Of a stretch of 64,000 nt of DNA, positions 52,259-61,509 are shown piece by piece. The stretch is taken from positions 3,112,001 to 3,176,000 of the forward strand of contig NZ_CP136651.1 in assembly GCF_036784765.1 (NCBI RefSeq). The letters are read 5' to 3'. Made by a program: the position numbers and the translations under genes. Source of the DNA: Novosphingobium sp. ZN18A2 (GTDB lineage Bacteria; Pseudomonadota; Alphaproteobacteria; Sphingomonadales; Sphingomonadaceae). Each line of letters begins with the position of its first letter. The first letter of the stretch is position 1. The notes beneath the pieces are model-generated. The model ran no database searches and had not been told where the DNA came from. It was given only the letters and a program-made list of their open reading frames with translations.

Positions 52259-52927
52259 TCAGTGCGCGACGAGCCCGGCCAGCAGACGATGCGCGATTTC
52301 CGCCACGGTCTTGCGTCGCGAACCGTCCAACGCGTCCCAGCCAAGGAATGCCCGCGAAATGGGTTCTTCCCGCGTAAAGGCCGAAAGCGACGCGATCAGC
52401 ATCAGTGCGCCGGCCCTGTCCTGCTCGCTGCCGGGTTCCCGCCTGCGCGCAATCGCGATCAGATCGGCGACAAGCCCGATGCCAGGCTGCCACAGTTCGT
52501 CGACCAGCAGGGTATAGCCCGGCCCCTGCTCGCTCATCTCGCGCAGAAGGAAATCGGTCGACAGGCGCTGTTCGGTATCGGCCGTGATCATGGCGACCAG
52601 CGCCGTGAGTATCTTTTCCAGCCAGTCGCGCGCCGCTTCGGGTGCCAAAGGGCCGGATGCCGCCTCTCTGGCAGCGCTGGTCAGTGGCAGCAGCTGGCGC
52701 CGGTGCTGTTCGACGATTTCCTGAGCGCAGGCGCGGTGCAGTCCGTCCTTGTTGCCGAAATGATAGGCGATCACCGGCAGCGTGACACCGGCTTCCGCTG
52801 CGATCATGCGGGTCGTGGCGCCGGCAAAGCCTTCGCGCGCGAAGCATCGCATTCCCGCAGCCAGAATGCGGTCTGCGGTGGTGCCCGAAGGCTCGGGCTT
52901 CACAACTGTCGAGGCGTCCATGCCCAT
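52259..52927 (-). CDS. TetR-family regulator with CecR-type C-terminal domain
   Basis: 222 aa. HTH: RILAAGMRCFAREGFAGATT then RMIAAEAGVTLPVIAYHFGN KDGL. The C-terminal part (DTEQRLSTDFLLREMSEQGP) matches the CecR/YbiH branch. Divergent from the acyl-CoA ligase at 53048, its likely target, and upstream of fdsG in the same direction. The shared intergenic stretch holds TATC-GACT-GATA at 52960-52971. Confidence 0.88.
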   Translation of the reverse strand: MGMDASTVVKPEPSGTTADRILAAGMRCFAREGFAGATTRMIAAEAGVTLPVIAYHFGNKDGLHRACAQEIVEQHRRQLLPLTSAAREAASGPLAPEAARDWLEKILTALVAMITADTEQRLSTDFLLREMSEQGPGYTLLVDELWQPGIGLVADLIAIARRREPGSEQDRAGALMLIASLSAFTREEPISRAFLGWDALDGSRRKTVAEIAHRLLAGLVAH

Positions 52928-52959
52928 CGCTATAGCGCGAACCCTGTTGCAGTAAAACC

Positions 52960-52971
52960 TATCGACTGATA
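52960..52971. promoter_or_regulatory. TATC-N4-GATA inverted repeat between TetR and acyl-CoA ligase genes
   Basis: TATCGACTGATA. The same TATC-N4-GATA pattern occurs before the TonB receptor (59609-59620) and the acyl-CoA dehydrogenase (60393-60404). Probably a TetR operator. Confidence 0.5.
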
Positions 52972-53047
52972 ACCCGGTCCAAAGTGGTCCGGGGAGGCTG
53001 GCATGGTGCGCCAGATTCGATCCGGGGCCAACGGGAGAACGGACTAT

Positions 53048-54634
53048 ATGACTCAGGCGACCGCTACCGCTCCGACCACGGCAGAGCGCACAGCCCACAT
53101 CTTCACCTTCGACGATTTCATCCGCTTCTGGGCCGATGATCGCCCCGATCGCGTGGCGCTGGACGGTTTCGATGGCGTGCTTACCTACGCCGAACTGGCC
53201 GATACGACTGCCCGCGTCGCCGCAGGCCTGAAGGCGATGGGGATCACCAAGGGGGATCGCATCGCCTGGTTCGGCAAGAACAGCGTGCTTTACTTTACGG
53301 TATTCTTTGCGGCTGCCCGCGCGGGCGTGGTCATGGTTCCGGTCGGCTGGCGCCTTGCCCCGCCCGAAGCGGCGTGGATCGTCGAAAACGCGGAAGCCAA
53401 GGCCGTTTTCCTGGGTGACGGGTTCGATGCGATGCAGGAAACTTTCGGCAAGGTCGGAACCGTCCAGCGCTGCTTCACCGCGGACGAGGCCCGCAAATGG
53501 GTCGACGATTGCCAGCCCGGCGATTTCGAACCTGCGGCCGAAGAAGAAGCCGTGCTGCAACTCTACACCAGCGGCACCACCGGCAATCCGAAAGGCGCGG
53601 TGCTTTCCAACCGCAACCTGTTCGGCCTGCGCAAGCAGTCCATCGGGCAGGAACTGGCCTATATGCAGACCACCGACGACGAGGCGATCCTTGTCGCCAT
53701 GCCCTGCGCGCATATCGGCGGCACCGGACTTGGCGTGATGGCGATCGCCGCGGGCCTGCCCGGCATCGTGCTGGCCGAATTCGAGCCGCGCGCGGTGTTC
53801 GACGCGGTGGAGCACAAGGGGATCACCCGTTTCTTCATCGTTCCCGCCGCGTTGCAGATGCTGCTGAACCATCCCGATTGCGGCAAGATCGACTACAGCC
53901 GCCTCAAATACATCCTCTACGGCGCGTCGCCGATTCCGCTTGAACTGCTGCGCGAATGCATCGCGATGTTCGATGCCGAATTCGTGCAGGCCTATGGCAT
54001 GACCGAGACGACCGGCACGATCTGTTCGCTCCCGCCAGAAGACCACTCGGTGGAAGGGAACGAGCGGATGCGCTCTGCCGGCAAGCCGCTGCCGGGCGTG
54101 GAAGTGCGCATCGTCGATGCCGACGGCAACGCGCTCGGCCCGCGCGAGATCGGCGAGATCCAGACGCGTTCGTCCAACAACATGATCGGCTACTGGAAAC
54201 TGCCCGAGGCGACCGCGAGCACGCTGTCGAACGACGGCTGGATTTCGACCGGCGATGCCGGATACGTGGACGAGGACGGCTATGTCTACATGCACGACCG
54301 CATGAAGGACATGATCATTACCGGCGGCGAGAACGTCTATCCCGCCCAGGTCGAAAGCGCGATTTACGGCCACCCCGACGTTCACGAAGTTGCGGTGATC
54401 GGCGTGCCTGACGACAAGTGGGGCGAAGCGGTAAAGGCCGTGGTCGTGCCCAAGCCGGGCCATACCGTCGATCCCGCCAGCGTAATCCAGTGGACGCGCG
54501 AAAAGCTGGCCGCGTTCAAGGTGCCCAAGACCGTGGACGTGATCGATGCCCTGCCGCGCAACCCCACCGGCAAAATCCTGCGCCGCGAACTGCGCGCGCC
54601 CTATTGGGAAGGCAAGGACCGGCAGGTAAACTGA
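53048..54634 (+). CDS. Acyl-CoA synthetase (FadD-like AMP-forming ligase)
   Basis: 528 aa. ANL motifs: LYTSGTTGNPKGAVLSNRN (ATP), YGMTETTGTICSLP, STGDAGYVDEDGYVYMHDRM then KDMIITGGENVYPAQVE, and RNPTGKILRRELR with the catalytic Lys. Activates a carboxylic acid to its CoA ester; chain length or ring type is not readable. GGGAGAA precedes the ATG; a start 15 codons earlier is less likely. Divergent from the TetR gene. Confidence 0.93.
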   Translation: MTQATATAPTTAERTAHIFTFDDFIRFWADDRPDRVALDGFDGVLTYAELADTTARVAAGLKAMGITKGDRIAWFGKNSVLYFTVFFAAARAGVVMVPVGWRLAPPEAAWIVENAEAKAVFLGDGFDAMQETFGKVGTVQRCFTADEARKWVDDCQPGDFEPAAEEEAVLQLYTSGTTGNPKGAVLSNRNLFGLRKQSIGQELAYMQTTDDEAILVAMPCAHIGGTGLGVMAIAAGLPGIVLAEFEPRAVFDAVEHKGITRFFIVPAALQMLLNHPDCGKIDYSRLKYILYGASPIPLELLRECIAMFDAEFVQAYGMTETTGTICSLPPEDHSVEGNERMRSAGKPLPGVEVRIVDADGNALGPREIGEIQTRSSNNMIGYWKLPEATASTLSNDGWISTGDAGYVDEDGYVYMHDRMKDMIITGGENVYPAQVESAIYGHPDVHEVAVIGVPDDKWGEAVKAVVVPKPGHTVDPASVIQWTREKLAAFKVPKTVDVIDALPRNPTGKILRRELRAPYWEGKDRQVN

Positions 54635-55362: not shown

Positions 55363-56952
55363 TTACCGCACGCCGTCGGTCCGCCGGATGAAGTCCGCCA
55401 CGTTCGCGTGCAGTTCGGCCAGCACCTTCGGATTCACATAAACCATGTGGCCCGAACGGTAATACCGGTATTCGATGTTCTTCTGCAAAGCGGGCGACAC
55501 CGGCAGGTGACGCAGTTCGAACTTGCCTTCGAAATAAGGGGTCGAAACGTCGAAATACCCGCCGTTGACCATCACCTTCAACGTGGGGTTCTGCTTCATC
55601 GCGGCGGCAAGGTCGGGCAGCACGTTGGGCAATGCGATCATGTCCCGCCCCGAACCTGGCGGGCGGTGGCGATAGTCCCAGCCCGAATAGACATCGATGC
55701 CCGCCTTGTAGGTCTTGCCCGCACCATAGTGCAGTGTCTGGCGGACATAGGTGTTGAGCGCGGCGACATAGGCCGAACTGATACCCGCGCTTTGCGGATC
55801 GTATTCGGCGACTTTGCTTAAAGGGTCGAGCGTCGGGCCGGTAAAGCGCGTGTCCAATGTGCCGGTGGTAAGACCGCTGCCAGCCAGCAATTCCTTCTGG
55901 AATGCGCCGTATTCGATGCGCAGGTTGGTCTTGATCAGATAGCTGACGGGAAGCCCCGTCAGGTCGTGCAGTTTCCGCGCCATCGCCTGCCTGTCCGCAT
56001 CCGGCAAGTCGTTGCCCTGCATCAGCGCGGCGGCATATTCGGTAGTGGCAAAATGTTCGACCCGGGCCAGAAAGCCTTCCAGGTCGGCGGGCTTGTTCGG
56101 CAGCTTGTCATGATACCACGCGGTTGCGGCATATGTCGGCAGCGCGACGATATAGGGTTCGTCAATCGATGGATTGAGCTGCGGATCGTCCGGCATCGTA
56201 TCCCAGTTGAGGATATTCGACAGCAGGATCGTGCCGTTAAGGTCGATGTCTTCCTGTTGCAGCGCCAGGGTCAGTCCCGCCGCGCGCATCGTGCCGTAGC
56301 TTTCACCGAAAAGGTATTTGGGGCTGTTCCACCGGTTATACTTCGAAAGGAACTGTCGGATGAACATCGCGAAGGCGTGGATATCCTGGTCCACGCCATA
56401 GAACGCCTTGTCCTTGTCTTTCCCCGCAATGCGCGAAAAGCCGGTTCCGGGTGCATCGACGAACACCACGTCCGACACGTCGAGCAGGCTCTGGTCGTTG
56501 CTGACGATGCTGTATGGCGCGGCGGGCGTGTGGGTGCCGTCGCTCACCACCACGCGCACCGGGCCGAAGGCGCCCATGTGCAGCCAGAGGGATGACGAAC
56601 CCGGCCCGCCGTTGAAAACGAAGGTGATCGGCCGGCTGGCTGCAGGTACGCCGTCCCTGAAATAGGCGGCATAGAACATCGACGCTTCGGCCGGCGCCTC
56701 GTCCGCGTCCGCTTTGGCGTCCTTGCCCGTTACGGCGGCATCGTCCCAGCCCTTGGCGTGAACCACTAACGTGCCCGCCATCGCGGTATAGCCGATGCGC
56801 CGCCCGCCGATCGTTACGCTGCCGGCAGATCGCACTTCGTCCGGCGTGAACAGGCCCGCCTGCGCTTTTGCTTGCTGACCGCCATCGGCGGCATGCGCGG
56901 GCAACGAAGCCGCGGCAAGGCCCGCGGCGAACAGGACGGTAATGGATTTCAT
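55363..56952 (-). CDS. Secreted S10-family serine carboxypeptidase-like protein (paralogue 2)
   Basis: 529 aa, signal MKSITVLFAAGLAAASLPAH with cleavage near AHA-AD. Same catalytic set as paralogue 1: NGGPGSSSLWLHMGAFGP, LFGESYGTMRAA, VNGGYFDVSTPYFEG and RSGHMVYVNPK. Long identical stretches, such as SRIAGKDKDKAFYGVD, show recent common origin. Directly downstream of the TonB receptor but behind a strong terminator, so probably a separate transcript. Confidence 0.88.
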   Translation of the reverse strand: MKSITVLFAAGLAAASLPAHAADGGQQAKAQAGLFTPDEVRSAGSVTIGGRRIGYTAMAGTLVVHAKGWDDAAVTGKDAKADADEAPAEASMFYAAYFRDGVPAASRPITFVFNGGPGSSSLWLHMGAFGPVRVVVSDGTHTPAAPYSIVSNDQSLLDVSDVVFVDAPGTGFSRIAGKDKDKAFYGVDQDIHAFAMFIRQFLSKYNRWNSPKYLFGESYGTMRAAGLTLALQQEDIDLNGTILLSNILNWDTMPDDPQLNPSIDEPYIVALPTYAATAWYHDKLPNKPADLEGFLARVEHFATTEYAAALMQGNDLPDADRQAMARKLHDLTGLPVSYLIKTNLRIEYGAFQKELLAGSGLTTGTLDTRFTGPTLDPLSKVAEYDPQSAGISSAYVAALNTYVRQTLHYGAGKTYKAGIDVYSGWDYRHRPPGSGRDMIALPNVLPDLAAAMKQNPTLKVMVNGGYFDVSTPYFEGKFELRHLPVSPALQKNIEYRYYRSGHMVYVNPKVLAELHANVADFIRRTDGVR

Positions 56953-57000
56953 CTGCGCAAGGTTCCCCGGTTTGTCCGGCGTTAACTGCCGGTCCGGACC

Positions 57001-57069: not shown

Positions 57070-59568
57070 TTACCGGAACGTGGTCTTCAGCGTTGCACCC
57101 CATGTCCGGCTGTGGCCGGGGAAGCGCACCGCCGTGTTGGCGTTGGTCGCGGCCGATACCCAGTAGTATTCGTCCGTCAGGTTGCGCGCCCAGATCGAGA
57201 AGTCCCACTTCCCGTCAAGGTCGTGAACGCCGATACTGGCGTTGATCGTGCCGTAAGGCTTGAGGTTCAGCAGCGGATCGTTCTCGAGCGTGTTCTTCGC
57301 GCTTGACTGGTAATGCCCGTTGACGATTGCCCGGACGCCCAGCTTGTCGCTCACGGGCACGTCATAGCTGATCGTTGCCGCGCCCGAGAATTCGGGGCTG
57401 AGCGGGAAGGTCGCGCCGTCATAGCTCTTGGGCTGGCCCGCCGCGTCGATCCCGGTGAAGCCCTGGATCTCGGTCTTCAGCCATGTCGCGGCAAGAGAGA
57501 CGTTGAGGTTGGGCGTAAGAAACCACGAAAGGTCGCCGTCGAGGCCATAGGCCCGCGACTTGGGCACGTTGTCGAGCCGCAGCAGCGTGGTGTAGATCGG
57601 GTCCGCGAAATAGACCGCCAGCTGCTTGTCGCGATAGTCGTAATAGAACCCTGTCAGGTTGAAGTTCAGCTTGCGGTCAAGCAGCCGCAGCTTGGTGCCC
57701 AGTTCATAGGACGTCAGTTCTTCCTGCCGCGCGGGCGCATCCTGCGTGGAGATGTTCGCGGCGTTCACCGGGGTAGAGCCCGATTTGTAGCCGCGGGAAA
57801 CCGACGCGAAGAAGTGCGTATCCGGGTTCACTTCCCATCCCAGCGCGACGCGCCACGCCACGTTATCCTCGTCCAGCTTTGACTTGACGATGCCGAAGGT
57901 GCCCGTGGCCGGATCGAAGGTGTTGCACTGGTTGGTCCCGATCGGCGCCGTCACCACACCATAAACCTGGTAGAAGAACGCCCGGTTGAACAGGTTCACG
58001 TTGGGCTGCATCGACCCGTTGATATCGCGCGAACAGCCGGCGAAATCCTGCGTATCCTTGGTGTAGCGGATGCCGGTCGTCAGCGTCAGCGCCGGGGTAA
58101 GCGTCCAGTCGGAGCTTGCGAAGATGCTCTTCGTCTCGACGTTGAAGTTCGCCGTATCGCGATAGGTGCGGAACGATTGCAGCACGTCGGTAACGGTATA
58201 GCCTTCCGAATTGAACGGCGAGTTCAACAGGTCGAGCCCCAGGATCGTCGCGCGGATGGCGCCGACGTTGGCGTTCTGGCCCAGCAACGTCTGGTTGGTG
58301 TCCAGCACCTTGTCGTTGGCATAGTATCCGCCGATTACCCAGTCGGCCGGCCCGGTCTTGCCCTGGAAACGCATTTCCTGGGAGATCGAGTCAACATAGC
58401 CTTCGGCGTGCTGCACCAGGATCACATAGGGGGAGCCGGACCAGTCGAACGTGCCGTTGCGCTTTACCTTGTTATAGCCGGTGAGCGAAACGAACTGGAT
58501 GTTGTCGGTCAGGTCGAACTGCATCAGCCCGCGGATGCCGATGTACCAATCGTTCTCGCGCAGCGGGTCGGAAATGCCCGCGCCGCGTCCGATGTCGGTC
58601 GAGCGCGACGAATAGGGAGCCCAGTCGGCGGTATCCTGGTTCCACGTGTCCTTGTGCGCGGCAATATATTCGGGCAGCCCCGCGGCGTTGAACATGGAAA
58701 ACAGCGTTCCGTTCGCCGGATCGGTGTTGGGCGTAAAGCCGATGCCTTGCGCGGCCAGCGTGTCGGACTTGTTCTTCCAGCCGTTGATGCCGAGTTCCAG
58801 CTTCATTCGGTCGGTCGGGTGCGCGGTGATCGTCAGGCGCGCGCCATACTTGTGGACCTTGCCCAGCTTTTCGTCGCGGCTGGCGCTCTTCTGCCAACCT
58901 TCCCAGCTATCCTCGGTGCGCCACGCCAGGCGCGCGGCCAGCCCGTCACCCATCGGCACGTTGAGGAAGCCTTCGGTGTTCAGGGTCTGGAAGTTGCCGC
59001 CTTCCACCGTAAGCCCGGCGGAAAGGTCGTCCGTCGGCTTTGCGGTGATGAAATCGACAAGACCCGCCGTGGTGTTGCGGCCGTAGAGCGTGCCCTGCGG
59101 CCCCTTCAGCACCTCGACACGTTCAAGATCGAACACCGGGCCGGAATTCATGAACGGATAGGCCAGCGCCACTTCGTCGACATAGGTGCCGACCGTGGAC
59201 GTGGAAGAAAGGTTGATCGTATTGAAGCCGATACCGCGCAGCGTATAGATCGGCACGCCCTGATACCCGCGCGAGACATTGAACGAAGGCACCACCGTCT
59301 GCAGGTCTTCGGTGGACGTGACGCGCAGATCCTTCAGCTTTTCGCCGCTGAACGCCTGGACCGATGCGGGCACATCCTCAAGCGACTGGGCACGCCTTTG
59401 CGCGGTAACGACGATAACGCCGTTTCCGGCCGCCGGCGCATCGGGCGTAGCGGCTTCGGCCGCCTGCGAATCGGGTGCCGTCTGCGCAAGCGCCGGTGCG
59501 GCGAACAGCGGCGTGGCAAGCATCGAAGCAGCAAGCAAGGAAGGCGCGATTCGCCTGGCAATCGACAT
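57070..59568 (-). CDS. TonB-dependent outer-membrane receptor
   Basis: 832 aa. Signal MSIARRIAPSLLAASMLATP; a TonB box-like VIVVTAQRR near residue 45; plug domain (SLEDVPASVQAFSGEKLKDL, IYTLRGIGFNTIN, DLERVEVLKGPQGTLYGRNT); a 22-strand barrel ending SRTWGATLKTTFR with terminal Arg after Phe. GGGAGAGAG lies 5-6 nt before the ATG. No N-terminal signalling extension. Sphingomonad receptors of this type import non-siderophore substrates as often as iron; the linked TetR and acyl-CoA genes favour a lipid-like or aromatic substrate (inference). Confidence 0.94.
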   Translation of the reverse strand: MSIARRIAPSLLAASMLATPLFAAPALAQTAPDSQAAEAATPDAPAAGNGVIVVTAQRRAQSLEDVPASVQAFSGEKLKDLRVTSTEDLQTVVPSFNVSRGYQGVPIYTLRGIGFNTINLSSTSTVGTYVDEVALAYPFMNSGPVFDLERVEVLKGPQGTLYGRNTTAGLVDFITAKPTDDLSAGLTVEGGNFQTLNTEGFLNVPMGDGLAARLAWRTEDSWEGWQKSASRDEKLGKVHKYGARLTITAHPTDRMKLELGINGWKNKSDTLAAQGIGFTPNTDPANGTLFSMFNAAGLPEYIAAHKDTWNQDTADWAPYSSRSTDIGRGAGISDPLRENDWYIGIRGLMQFDLTDNIQFVSLTGYNKVKRNGTFDWSGSPYVILVQHAEGYVDSISQEMRFQGKTGPADWVIGGYYANDKVLDTNQTLLGQNANVGAIRATILGLDLLNSPFNSEGYTVTDVLQSFRTYRDTANFNVETKSIFASSDWTLTPALTLTTGIRYTKDTQDFAGCSRDINGSMQPNVNLFNRAFFYQVYGVVTAPIGTNQCNTFDPATGTFGIVKSKLDEDNVAWRVALGWEVNPDTHFFASVSRGYKSGSTPVNAANISTQDAPARQEELTSYELGTKLRLLDRKLNFNLTGFYYDYRDKQLAVYFADPIYTTLLRLDNVPKSRAYGLDGDLSWFLTPNLNVSLAATWLKTEIQGFTGIDAAGQPKSYDGATFPLSPEFSGAATISYDVPVSDKLGVRAIVNGHYQSSAKNTLENDPLLNLKPYGTINASIGVHDLDGKWDFSIWARNLTDEYYWVSAATNANTAVRFPGHSRTWGATLKTTFR

Positions 59569-59604: not shown

Positions 59605-59640
59605 AGTCTATCACCGGATAAAAAGTTATCAATCATGATA
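59605..59640 (-). promoter_or_regulatory. Promoter and operator pair of the TonB receptor
   Basis: Box A TATCA-ATCA-TGATA (59627-59640) and box B TATC-ACCG-GATA (59609-59620). On the minus strand TTGATA (59632-59627), 16 nt, TAGACT (59610-59605) forms a promoter that both boxes overlap. The same A-then-B order occurs before the acyl-CoA dehydrogenase. The TetR gene at 59722 is divergent. Confidence 0.65.
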
Positions 59641-59721
59641 GTGAGGATGGGTTGTGACATTTTTGCACCATAGCGGGTCGGGCCGCTTGCTTTTCCCACC
59701 GCGAACCGGTCAAGTGCCGCG

Positions 59722-60363
59722 ATGAAAGCCCCCGCACGCAAGTCCGCGGCCACGCGCCAGCCTCGCGAAAACAGCCGCGAGACGCTTCTGGACGCGACCA
59801 GCGCGCTGATGCGCGAACTGGATACGGTGGAGGTCGGCATTGTCGACATCGCCGCCCGCGCCGGGGTGAACCACGCGATGATCCGCTATTTCTTCGGCAG
59901 CAAGGAAGGGCTGATGTTCGCGCTTCTGGACCGCGACGTGGAAAAGCGAATTCGGCAGCTGGACCGGCTCTTCGCGCTAGACGTCACACCGACGGAGCGG
60001 ATGCGTATCCACCTGCGCGGCATCATGGATACTTATTACGAGATTCCCTATCTCAACCGCCTGATCCAGCGCATGGTGCGCGAAGCGGACCCGGTGCGGG
60101 TGGAACACGTGGCGGAAGAATTGCTGAAACCGATCGCGCAGGCACAGCACCGAATTATCGAGGAAGGGGTGAAAGCCGGCGAATTTCGTCCGATCGATCC
60201 CAAGCTGTTCTATTTCAACACGATCGGCTCGGCCGACGGGCTTTATGCCAACCGCTTCACGCTTTCGGCCGTGTTCGGCGACGTTCCGCATTTCGATCCG
60301 CAGCTTCATGCCCGGTATCGCGATCAGACGGTAGACACGCTGATGCGGGGCTTGCTTGTCTGA
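59722..60363 (+). CDS. TetR-family transcriptional regulator
   Basis: 213 aa. HTH: RETLLDATSALMRELDTVEV then GIVDIAARAGVNHAMIRYFF GSKEGL. The C-terminal ligand domain is about residues 80-213. It sits between the divergent TonB receptor and the acyl-CoA dehydrogenase, both of which carry matching TATC/GATA boxes, so it is their likely repressor, perhaps with an acyl-CoA ligand. Confidence 0.92.
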   Translation: MKAPARKSAATRQPRENSRETLLDATSALMRELDTVEVGIVDIAARAGVNHAMIRYFFGSKEGLMFALLDRDVEKRIRQLDRLFALDVTPTERMRIHLRGIMDTYYEIPYLNRLIQRMVREADPVRVEHVAEELLKPIAQAQHRIIEEGVKAGEFRPIDPKLFYFNTIGSADGLYANRFTLSAVFGDVPHFDPQLHARYRDQTVDTLMRGLLV

Positions 60364-60373
60364 CCAAGCATGT

Positions 60374-60404
60374 TATCAGATCTGATAATTCGTATCACCC
60401 GATA
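60374..60404 (+). promoter_or_regulatory. TATC/GATA operator pair before the acyl-CoA dehydrogenase
   Basis: Box A TATCA-GATC-TGATA (60374-60387), part of the perfect 16-bp palindrome TTATCAGATCTGATAA, and box B TATC-ACCC-GATA (60393-60404), 18 bp centre to centre. CTGATA and TAACAT within them could be -35/-10. Confidence 0.65.
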
Positions 60405-60429: not shown

Positions 60430-61509
60430 GTGAATCTCGAACTCGATGACGACCTGCGCCTGTTGGGAGAAAGCCTTTCGGGTTGGCTGGCACAGCATCT
60501 TCCGTTCGAGCGCCGCCGCGAGATGCGCGATGCCACAAGCCAGGCGGGCTTGTGGAACGAGATGAATGCCGCCCTGGGCCTTGCAGGCGCGGGCCTGCCC
60601 GAAAGCTGGGGCGGTTTCGGTCGCGGCTGCGAAGCGCACATGGTCGTGGCCGAAGCGTTGGGTGCCGCGCTGGCCCCCACACCCTATGTCGAAAGCGCGG
60701 TGCTTTCCGGCACGCTTCTGGAATCGCTGCAAGGGCAGGACGAACTGGGGGCACAGCTTGCCGCCGGACGGATCGTGATAACGGCCTGGGAAGAACCGCA
60801 GTCGCGCGGTGACGCGACATCGATCGGCACCGCCGCGCGGGCTGACGGCAACGGCTGGAAGATAAGCGGGCTGAAGCGCGCCGTGCGCTGGGCGGGCGAA
60901 GCCGATGCCCTGCTGGTGAGTGCGAGAACGGCTGACGGCCCGTCAATCTTCCGCGTCGCGCTCGATGCGCCGGGCATGGACCTGCGGGCCTATCGCCTGA
61001 TCGACGATCATCCCGCATCCGACATAACGTTTTCTGACAGCCCGGCCACGCTTCTGGCAAGCGGCGCCGATGCTGCCGACGCGCTGTCGCGCGCGATCGA
61101 CGCGGCCACCGCCGCTACCTGTGCGGAAGGTACCGGTCTGATGCGCACGCTTCTGGACGATACCATCGCCTATACGCGAGAGCGCAAGCAGTTCGGCCAG
61201 CCGCTGGCATCGTTCCAGGTCCTGCAGCACCGCATGGTGGACATGCGGATCGCGGTTGAGGAATCGAGTGCCGCCGCCTTGCTTGCGGCGCTGCGCGCCG
61301 ACGATCCCGCCGCCGTTTCCGCCGCCAAGACCACCGTGGGCGAAGCGGTGCGCAAGATCGGCCAGGAAGCCGTGCAACTGCACGGGGCGATGGGGCTGAC
61401 CGAGGAATTGCGCGTCGGGCATTATTTCCGCCGCACCACCGCGATCGAAAACCAGTTCGGCGACGCCGACCGCCACCTCGCACGTTATCGCGCGCTGAAG
61501 ACCGCCTGA
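60430..61509 (+). CDS. Acyl-CoA dehydrogenase (FadE-like, small-subunit type)
   Basis: 359 aa, GTG start with CGGAGAA upstream. FAD-binding helices and beta domain: GLAGAGLPESWGGFGRG, VITAWEEPQSRGDATS; C-terminal helical domain with YTRERKQFGQPLASFQVLQH and LHGAMGLTEELRVGHYFRRT. The spacing resembles the smaller partner of pimeloyl/steroid side-chain dehydrogenases, which work as heteromers; no large partner is adjacent. The catalytic Glu of classical enzymes is not obvious at the usual place. Confidence 0.87.
   Translation: MNLELDDDLRLLGESLSGWLAQHLPFERRREMRDATSQAGLWNEMNAALGLAGAGLPESWGGFGRGCEAHMVVAEALGAALAPTPYVESAVLSGTLLESLQGQDELGAQLAAGRIVITAWEEPQSRGDATSIGTAARADGNGWKISGLKRAVRWAGEADALLVSARTADGPSIFRVALDAPGMDLRAYRLIDDHPASDITFSDSPATLLASGADAADALSRAIDAATAATCAEGTGLMRTLLDDTIAYTRERKQFGQPLASFQVLQHRMVDMRIAVEESSAAALLAALRADDPAAVSAAKTTVGEAVRKIGQEAVQLHGAMGLTEELRVGHYFRRTTAIENQFGDADRHLARYRALKTA

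Follow-up and report, generated by a model that had tools for sequence, protein, structure and literature searches.

Two TetR-type repressors with operators of different spacer length probably share one catabolic regulon in Novosphingobium

The tetO region of Tn10 contains two 15 bp operators, TCTATCATTGATAGG, which are separated by 11 bp (as quoted in PMC9736018). The operators analysed here in Novosphingobium sp. ZN18A2 have the half-site TATCA/TGATA in common with tetO, and likewise two of them are found in a single control region. However, the tetO spacer consists of one base (TATCA-N1-TGATA), compared to two or four in the present boxes, the present system is without an efflux pump, and its two regulators, named TetR1 and TetR2 here, differ from Tn10 TetR in recognition-helix residues and are not orthologues of it. 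The TetR-family protein FhtR of Enterococcus faecalis binds two TATC-N4-GATA palindromes in PhrtBA, TTATCAATCGATAA and TTATCGATTGATAA, which belong to one of the two operator classes considered below (N2) and are, as in our case, paired over -35/-10; in contrast to the arrangement proposed here, one protein acts on both sites, and FhtR senses heme and controls export (PMC7858072). We regard FhtR as directly showing that palindromes of the N2 class can serve a TetR-family protein as operators. In mycobacteria, the TetR repressors KstR and KstR2 act on one lipid-type catabolism, each with a short palindrome, which resembles the situation suggested here; but the KstR2 motif AnCAAGnnCTTGnT is unrelated to TATC/GATA boxes, KstR2 controls a gene set of its own, and a common two-site promoter is not reported in the accessible part of the source (PMC3068626). 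Among sphingomonads, EdcR (estradiol) and the bsd I bile-salt cluster of Caenibius tardaugens provide examples of TetR proteins encoded near TonB receptors and acyl-CoA dehydrogenases, but neither the EdcR operator TnnCnnTACnAnTnGTAnnGnnA nor the proposed bsd I palindromes match the present boxes (PMC8700777, PMC12882949). In the literature searched, a previous account of this pair of operators in sphingomonads was not found.

Here, we analysed a stretch of 64,000 nucleotides, referred to as the window. We designate TATCA-N4-TGATA as box A ('N4') and TATC-N4-GATA, i.e. TATCA-N2-TGATA with at most one change, as box B ('N2'). Both boxes are present ahead of the genes for a TonB-dependent receptor and an acyl-CoA dehydrogenase (Table 1). 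Read along its own gene, each promoter has A followed by B at centre-to-centre distances of 19 and 18 bp and with 5-6 bp between the box cores, and the box A at 60374-60387 sits inside a 16-bp perfect palindrome, TTATCAGATCTGATAA. The helix-turn-helix domain TetR_N scores above the Pfam cut-off (24) in both regulators (TetR1 30.3 bits, TetR2 51.4 bits), while the CecR_C domain (PF09209) of TetR2 is marginal (25.7 bits vs cut-off 24); the best solved match of TetR2 is CecR (9i1x). The N2 box is not a property of CecR as such, because the E. coli cecR-rhlE spacer contains no TATC-N4-GATA at ≤1 mismatch, and an N2 operator for all CecR proteins was ruled out on this basis. TetR2 is divergent from the acyl-CoA synthetase gene, with an N2 box in between (window 52259-52971). 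Directly downstream of the receptor gene and on the same strand lies a gene for an S10-type serine carboxypeptidase (window 55363-56955).

Table 1 Genes, predicted operators and promoter in the window (window coordinates)
Feature	Position	Strand	Remarks
TonB-dependent receptor	57070..59568	-	Plug + beta-barrel; ATG at 59568, GGGAG upstream
TetR1	59722..60363	+	Pfam TetR_N + TetR_C_9; proposed N4 repressor; recognition helix VNHAMIRYFFGSK; closest solved relative 2qtq
TetR2	52259..52927	-	Pfam TetR_N + CecR_C; proposed N2 repressor; recognition helix VTLPVIAYHFGNK
Acyl-CoA dehydrogenase, small-subunit type	60430..61509	+	best solved match Tcur3481; best NCBIfam PimD small, below cut-off
Acyl-CoA synthetase (AMP-binding)	53003..54634	+	adjoins TetR2 here; in single cluster in Novosphingobium relatives
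Box A / N4, receptor promoter	59627..59640	-	exact; TATCAATCATGATA, minus strand TATCATGATTGATA; contains -35 hexamer; proposed TetR1 site
Box B / N2, receptor promoter	59609..59620	-	exact; TATCACCGGATA, minus strand TATCCGGTGATA; overlaps extended -10; proposed TetR2 site
Sigma-70-like promoter of receptor	59605..59632	-	TTGATA-16-TAGACT, TG before -10; consensus match only
Box A / N4, ahead of acyl-CoA dehydrogenase	60374..60387	+	exact; TATCAGATCTGATA; proposed TetR1 site
Box B / N2, ahead of acyl-CoA dehydrogenase	60393..60404	+	exact; TATCACCCGATA
N2 operator between TetR2 and acyl-CoA synthetase	52960..52971	+	TATCGACTGATA; missing from first-pass annotation

In 300 dinucleotide shuffles of the window, neither an exact box A nor an A+B pair within 25 bp was obtained, and TATC-N4-GATA appeared 0.11 times per shuffle. 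Across the genome (one contig of 3,304,454 bp), exact box A has 4 sites, compared to 0 for a reversed-pattern control. Allowing one mismatch yields 13 further sites vs 9 in the control, which is close to background, and we thus dropped the definition of a regulon via genome-wide one-mismatch sites. Box B at ≤1 mismatch of TATCANNTGATA has 19 genome sites vs 10 in the control and is, taken alone, too common to define a regulon by sequence. All 4 exact box A sites adjoin genes that are clustered in relatives: those for the receptor, the dehydrogenase, a second acyl-CoA dehydrogenase and an MpaB/Lcp-type protein (PF09995). The latter two genes are divergent, and the remaining two exact sites (C1:757928 and 757995) lie between them; the first of these sites has an N2 box, TATCGCTTGATA, at a distance of 9 bp. 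This locus (L013 8916-11256, genome C1:756916-759256), with its N2+N4 and N4 boxes, is a detached part of the cluster, which relatives have in one piece. Several kb away from it, another adjacent pair of acyl-CoA dehydrogenase genes (L013 812-3207) is without boxes. A one-mismatch N4 box, TATCTCACCTGATA, was also noted elsewhere (L143 ~1499, genome C1:2346269); a gene some 200 bp away from it is weakly similar (29%) to the dehydrogenase and possibly a further regulon member, with the reservation that one-mismatch sites are near background.

In the stretch upstream of the receptor gene (minus strand 59632-59605), TTGATA-16-TAGACT with its upstream TG is the sole sigma-70-like match; its -35 lies within box A and its -10 is overlapped by box B. 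The first-pass annotation of the window had reported boxes A and B ahead of both genes, in the same order and at these centre spacings, and had placed them over a plausible -35/-10 of the receptor. The four boxes are exact at these places and, judged by the shuffles, far exceed chance expectation, the coordinates bear out order and spacing, and the overlap holds for the promoter as recognised by consensus match. Its list was incomplete, since it lacked the N2 box at 52960-52971 and the three boxes at 758 kb. In relatives that keep the gene order, where their absence would have refuted its reading, the boxes are present. In an alignment of 12 receptor promoters, the invariant columns comprise the half-sites of the boxes, the Shine-Dalgarno GGAG, the ATG and two isolated bases, and the rest is mostly poorly alignable. 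The right half of box B is kept in all 12, and its left half is shifted in species with TetR1 only, which results in N4 in place of N2. The N4 box ahead of the dehydrogenase at 60430 is likewise kept in relatives. The N2 box of that promoter was not found at the same gene in five Novosphingobium relatives and, being absent there, is the site whose function is least certain.

In relatives, the genes for the receptor, TetR1, the dehydrogenase, the second dehydrogenase and the MpaB/Lcp-type protein form one cluster of ~7 kb, which we found in Novosphingobium sp. KCTC 2891, N. percolationis, N. olei, N. huizhouense and Tsuneonella rigui, and further in Qipengyuania, Altererythrobacter xiamenensis and Sphingopyxis. 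N4 boxes precede the receptor, the dehydrogenase, and the second dehydrogenase or the MpaB/Lcp-type gene, and among the matches listed for those relatives most exact TTATCAN4TGATAA sites fall within the cluster. In the Novosphingobium relatives, the cluster is followed by the acyl-CoA synthetase gene, and TetR2, with one or two N2 boxes upstream, is located inside it, flanked by the genes for the second dehydrogenase and the MpaB/Lcp-type protein; in FKTRR1, it adjoins the receptor. ZN18A2 has a broken cluster, from which the genes for the second dehydrogenase and the MpaB/Lcp-type protein have moved to 758 kb together with their boxes. That the boxes stayed with the genes after the cluster broke is strong evidence for a functional regulon. 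In N. olei, a one-mismatch N4 box, TTATCAGCGTTGACAA, lies between divergent VOC and PhyH genes (L079 16510-16525), and TTATCAGCGTTGACAA is also among the sites listed for N. huizhouense; the sequence in N. olei suggests that the regulon may extend to the VOC/PhyH genes in this species. A gene for a protein with a linalool dehydratase/isomerase domain (L080 2293-4434) lies beside the cluster in N. olei and two other Novosphingobium genomes; it is absent from the genome studied.

The two dehydrogenases of the regulon match different chains of solved heteromeric enzymes. The one encoded at 60430-61509 has its best solved match in Tcur3481 (6wy8 chain A), while the second (758 kb) is closest to 4x28 chain A and then to Tcur3483 (6wy8 chain B); the best NCBIfam models are PimD small and PimC large, respectively, both below cut-off. 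The 4x28 structure is that of ChsE4-ChsE5, a heterotetramer that acts in the oxidation of steroid side chains in mycobacteria. By their sequences, the two proteins look like two subunits of one heteromeric FadE-type enzyme. As in the known heteromeric acyl-CoA dehydrogenases (4x28; Tcur3481-Tcur3483, 6wy8), both different 6wy8 chains find a counterpart in the pair. The difference is that the genes of our candidate pair are far apart, with start codons separated by 2.41 Mb on the contig, or by 0.89 Mb the other way if it is circular; the feature that these distant genes have in common is the operator.

But which repressor would occupy which box? In six genomes that encode TetR1 together with a close TetR2, the receptor has N4+N2, while in seven TetR1 genomes without a close TetR2 it has either a pair of N4 boxes at a spacing of 16-17 bp or a single exact N4. 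With each genome represented by a single receptor promoter, N2 is present there in 6/6 genomes that have TetR2 and in 0/7 that lack it (Fisher p = 6e-4 with kinship ignored; all six two-repressor genomes are Novosphingobium, so that few independent events are represented). Whole-genome searches of the relatives from Qipengyuania, Tsuneonella, Altererythrobacter and Sphingopyxis gave no TetR2 at ≥60% identity; two of the TetR1-only genomes (G080 and G162) encode distant TetR2-type proteins (36-37%). Support of a more independent kind than this count comes from a genome of another genus (G058) and from the tally of recognition helices and boxes. G058 has a TetR2 at 74% with two N2 boxes upstream, and in this genome we found neither a TetR1 at E <= 1e-30 nor an exact TTATCAN4TGATAA. 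Similarly, the TetR2 (63%) of Sandaracinobacteroides hominis is preceded by an N2 box, and its locus lacks N4. In the tabulated set, by our count, 17/19 TetR2 relatives with an LP recognition helix have TATC-N4-GATA within 200 bp of the gene, an N2 box within that distance accompanies 0/3 TetR2-type proteins with an NQPA helix, and neither box is found near 23 TetR1 paralogues (N2 0/23); this grouping by recognition helix was made after the boxes had been seen. In five of the LP-helix cases (L118, L120-L123), the boxes are looser and lie on the downstream side of TetR2, and one TetR2 relative at 62% (L130) is without box and without cluster. The TetR1 helix VNH[AGC]MIRY[FY]F is kept wherever N4 boxes occur. 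Two apparent exceptions were dropped: L018 has the receptor and no N4 box, but the recognition helix of its TetR1 relative is altered to VNHAMVKYHF, and L048 has a one-mismatch N4 box, TCTCAGACCTGATA, upstream of its TetR1.

As the boxes co-occur with the respective TetR and its recognition helix, we assign box A to TetR1 and box B to TetR2. The first-pass annotation had ascribed both boxes to the TetR at 59722. Its proposal that the receptor and the dehydrogenase are under TetR control, with operators over the promoter, stands at the level of sequence; the assumption of a single TetR for both is not supported, since across genomes box B tracks TetR2 and only box A tracks TetR1. Binding of both boxes by TetR1 as tandem dimers that tolerate a spacer of two or four bases would fit the common half-site, the two boxes at the receptor of TetR1-only species and the tandem sites known for one TetR-family protein (FhtR, PMC7858072; PA3973, PMC9736018). 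However, N2 boxes are found without TetR1 and beside TetR2, and the receptor has no N2 where TetR1 is the sole repressor; we consider this explanation unlikely, as it is outweighed by the co-occurrence of boxes and TetRs across genomes.

Thus, we think it likely that one catabolic regulon is governed by two TetR repressors. In this model, TetR1 would bind TTATCA-N4-TGATAA and TetR2 would bind TATC-N4-GATA, ideally TATCA-N2-TGATA, so that both operators would be built from the half-site TATCA/TGATA with a different spacer. At the receptor promoter, TetR1 would mask the -35 and TetR2 the -10, and each alone may be able to block RNA polymerase. Full uptake would then require release of both repressors. 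The substrate or its CoA ester is the probable signal for this, which is plausible by analogy to TetR regulators of catabolism. The predicted members are the receptor, the acyl-CoA synthetase, the MpaB/Lcp-type protein and both subunits of the putative heteromeric acyl-CoA dehydrogenase. Judged by box content, the dehydrogenase at 60430 (N4+N2) may respond to both repressors, the second dehydrogenase (N4 only) to TetR1 and the acyl-CoA synthetase (N2 only) to TetR2. Joint control of the 60430 dehydrogenase would be a recent gain, since the N2 box is missing there in the five relatives. With the box cores 5-6 bp apart, simultaneous occupancy of A and B is uncertain. Such a possible steric limit, together with the identity of the half-sites, would suit an arrangement in which each repressor prefers its own spacer but either box can be bound by both, the classes are leaky and the receptor promoter integrates by competition; the strict spacer classes across many genomes suggest discrimination instead and make such cross-talk rather improbable. 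It is conceivable, although we would not yet favour it, that spacing alone insulates the two repressors and that the receptor promoter turned from N4+N4 into N4+N2, a two-input gate, when TetR2 joined the cluster. It is hardly credible that the conservation has another cause (a different regulator, or DNA or RNA structure) and that the adjoining TetRs are incidental: the boxes form inverted repeats located at promoters, they follow the presence of a TetR and its recognition helix, and none is found near TetR1 paralogues.

What would such a regulon serve for? Further genes in the relatives encode a Baeyer-Villiger type flavin monooxygenase, PhyH-type dioxygenases, an SDR and sometimes the linalool dehydratase/isomerase, with PhyH, SDR and VOC genes read in N. 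olei only. Given the receptor, the acyl-CoA synthetase, the dehydrogenase of a type for bulky substrates, the MpaB/Lcp-type protein and these genes of the relatives, our guess is a hydrophobic cyclic or isoprenoid acid. We refrained from naming a pathway, since the gene for the linalool dehydratase/isomerase adjoins the cluster in no more than 3/5 checked Novosphingobium relatives and is lacking in ZN18A2, the PhyH/SDR/VOC set was read in one species, and the S10 peptidase gene was not found adjoining the receptor in relatives.

The analysis assigns predicted operators to two hitherto uncharacterised TetR subfamilies and ties the receptor, the acyl-CoA synthetase, the MpaB/Lcp-type protein and both dehydrogenase halves into one putative regulon, also in cases in which these genes have become separated. 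It also points towards two natural tests: one of how repressors with the same half-site might avoid cross-talk through spacer length, and one of how a promoter might acquire a second input. Once the inducer is known, the pair of TetR1 and TetR2 could serve as an orthogonal biosensor set.
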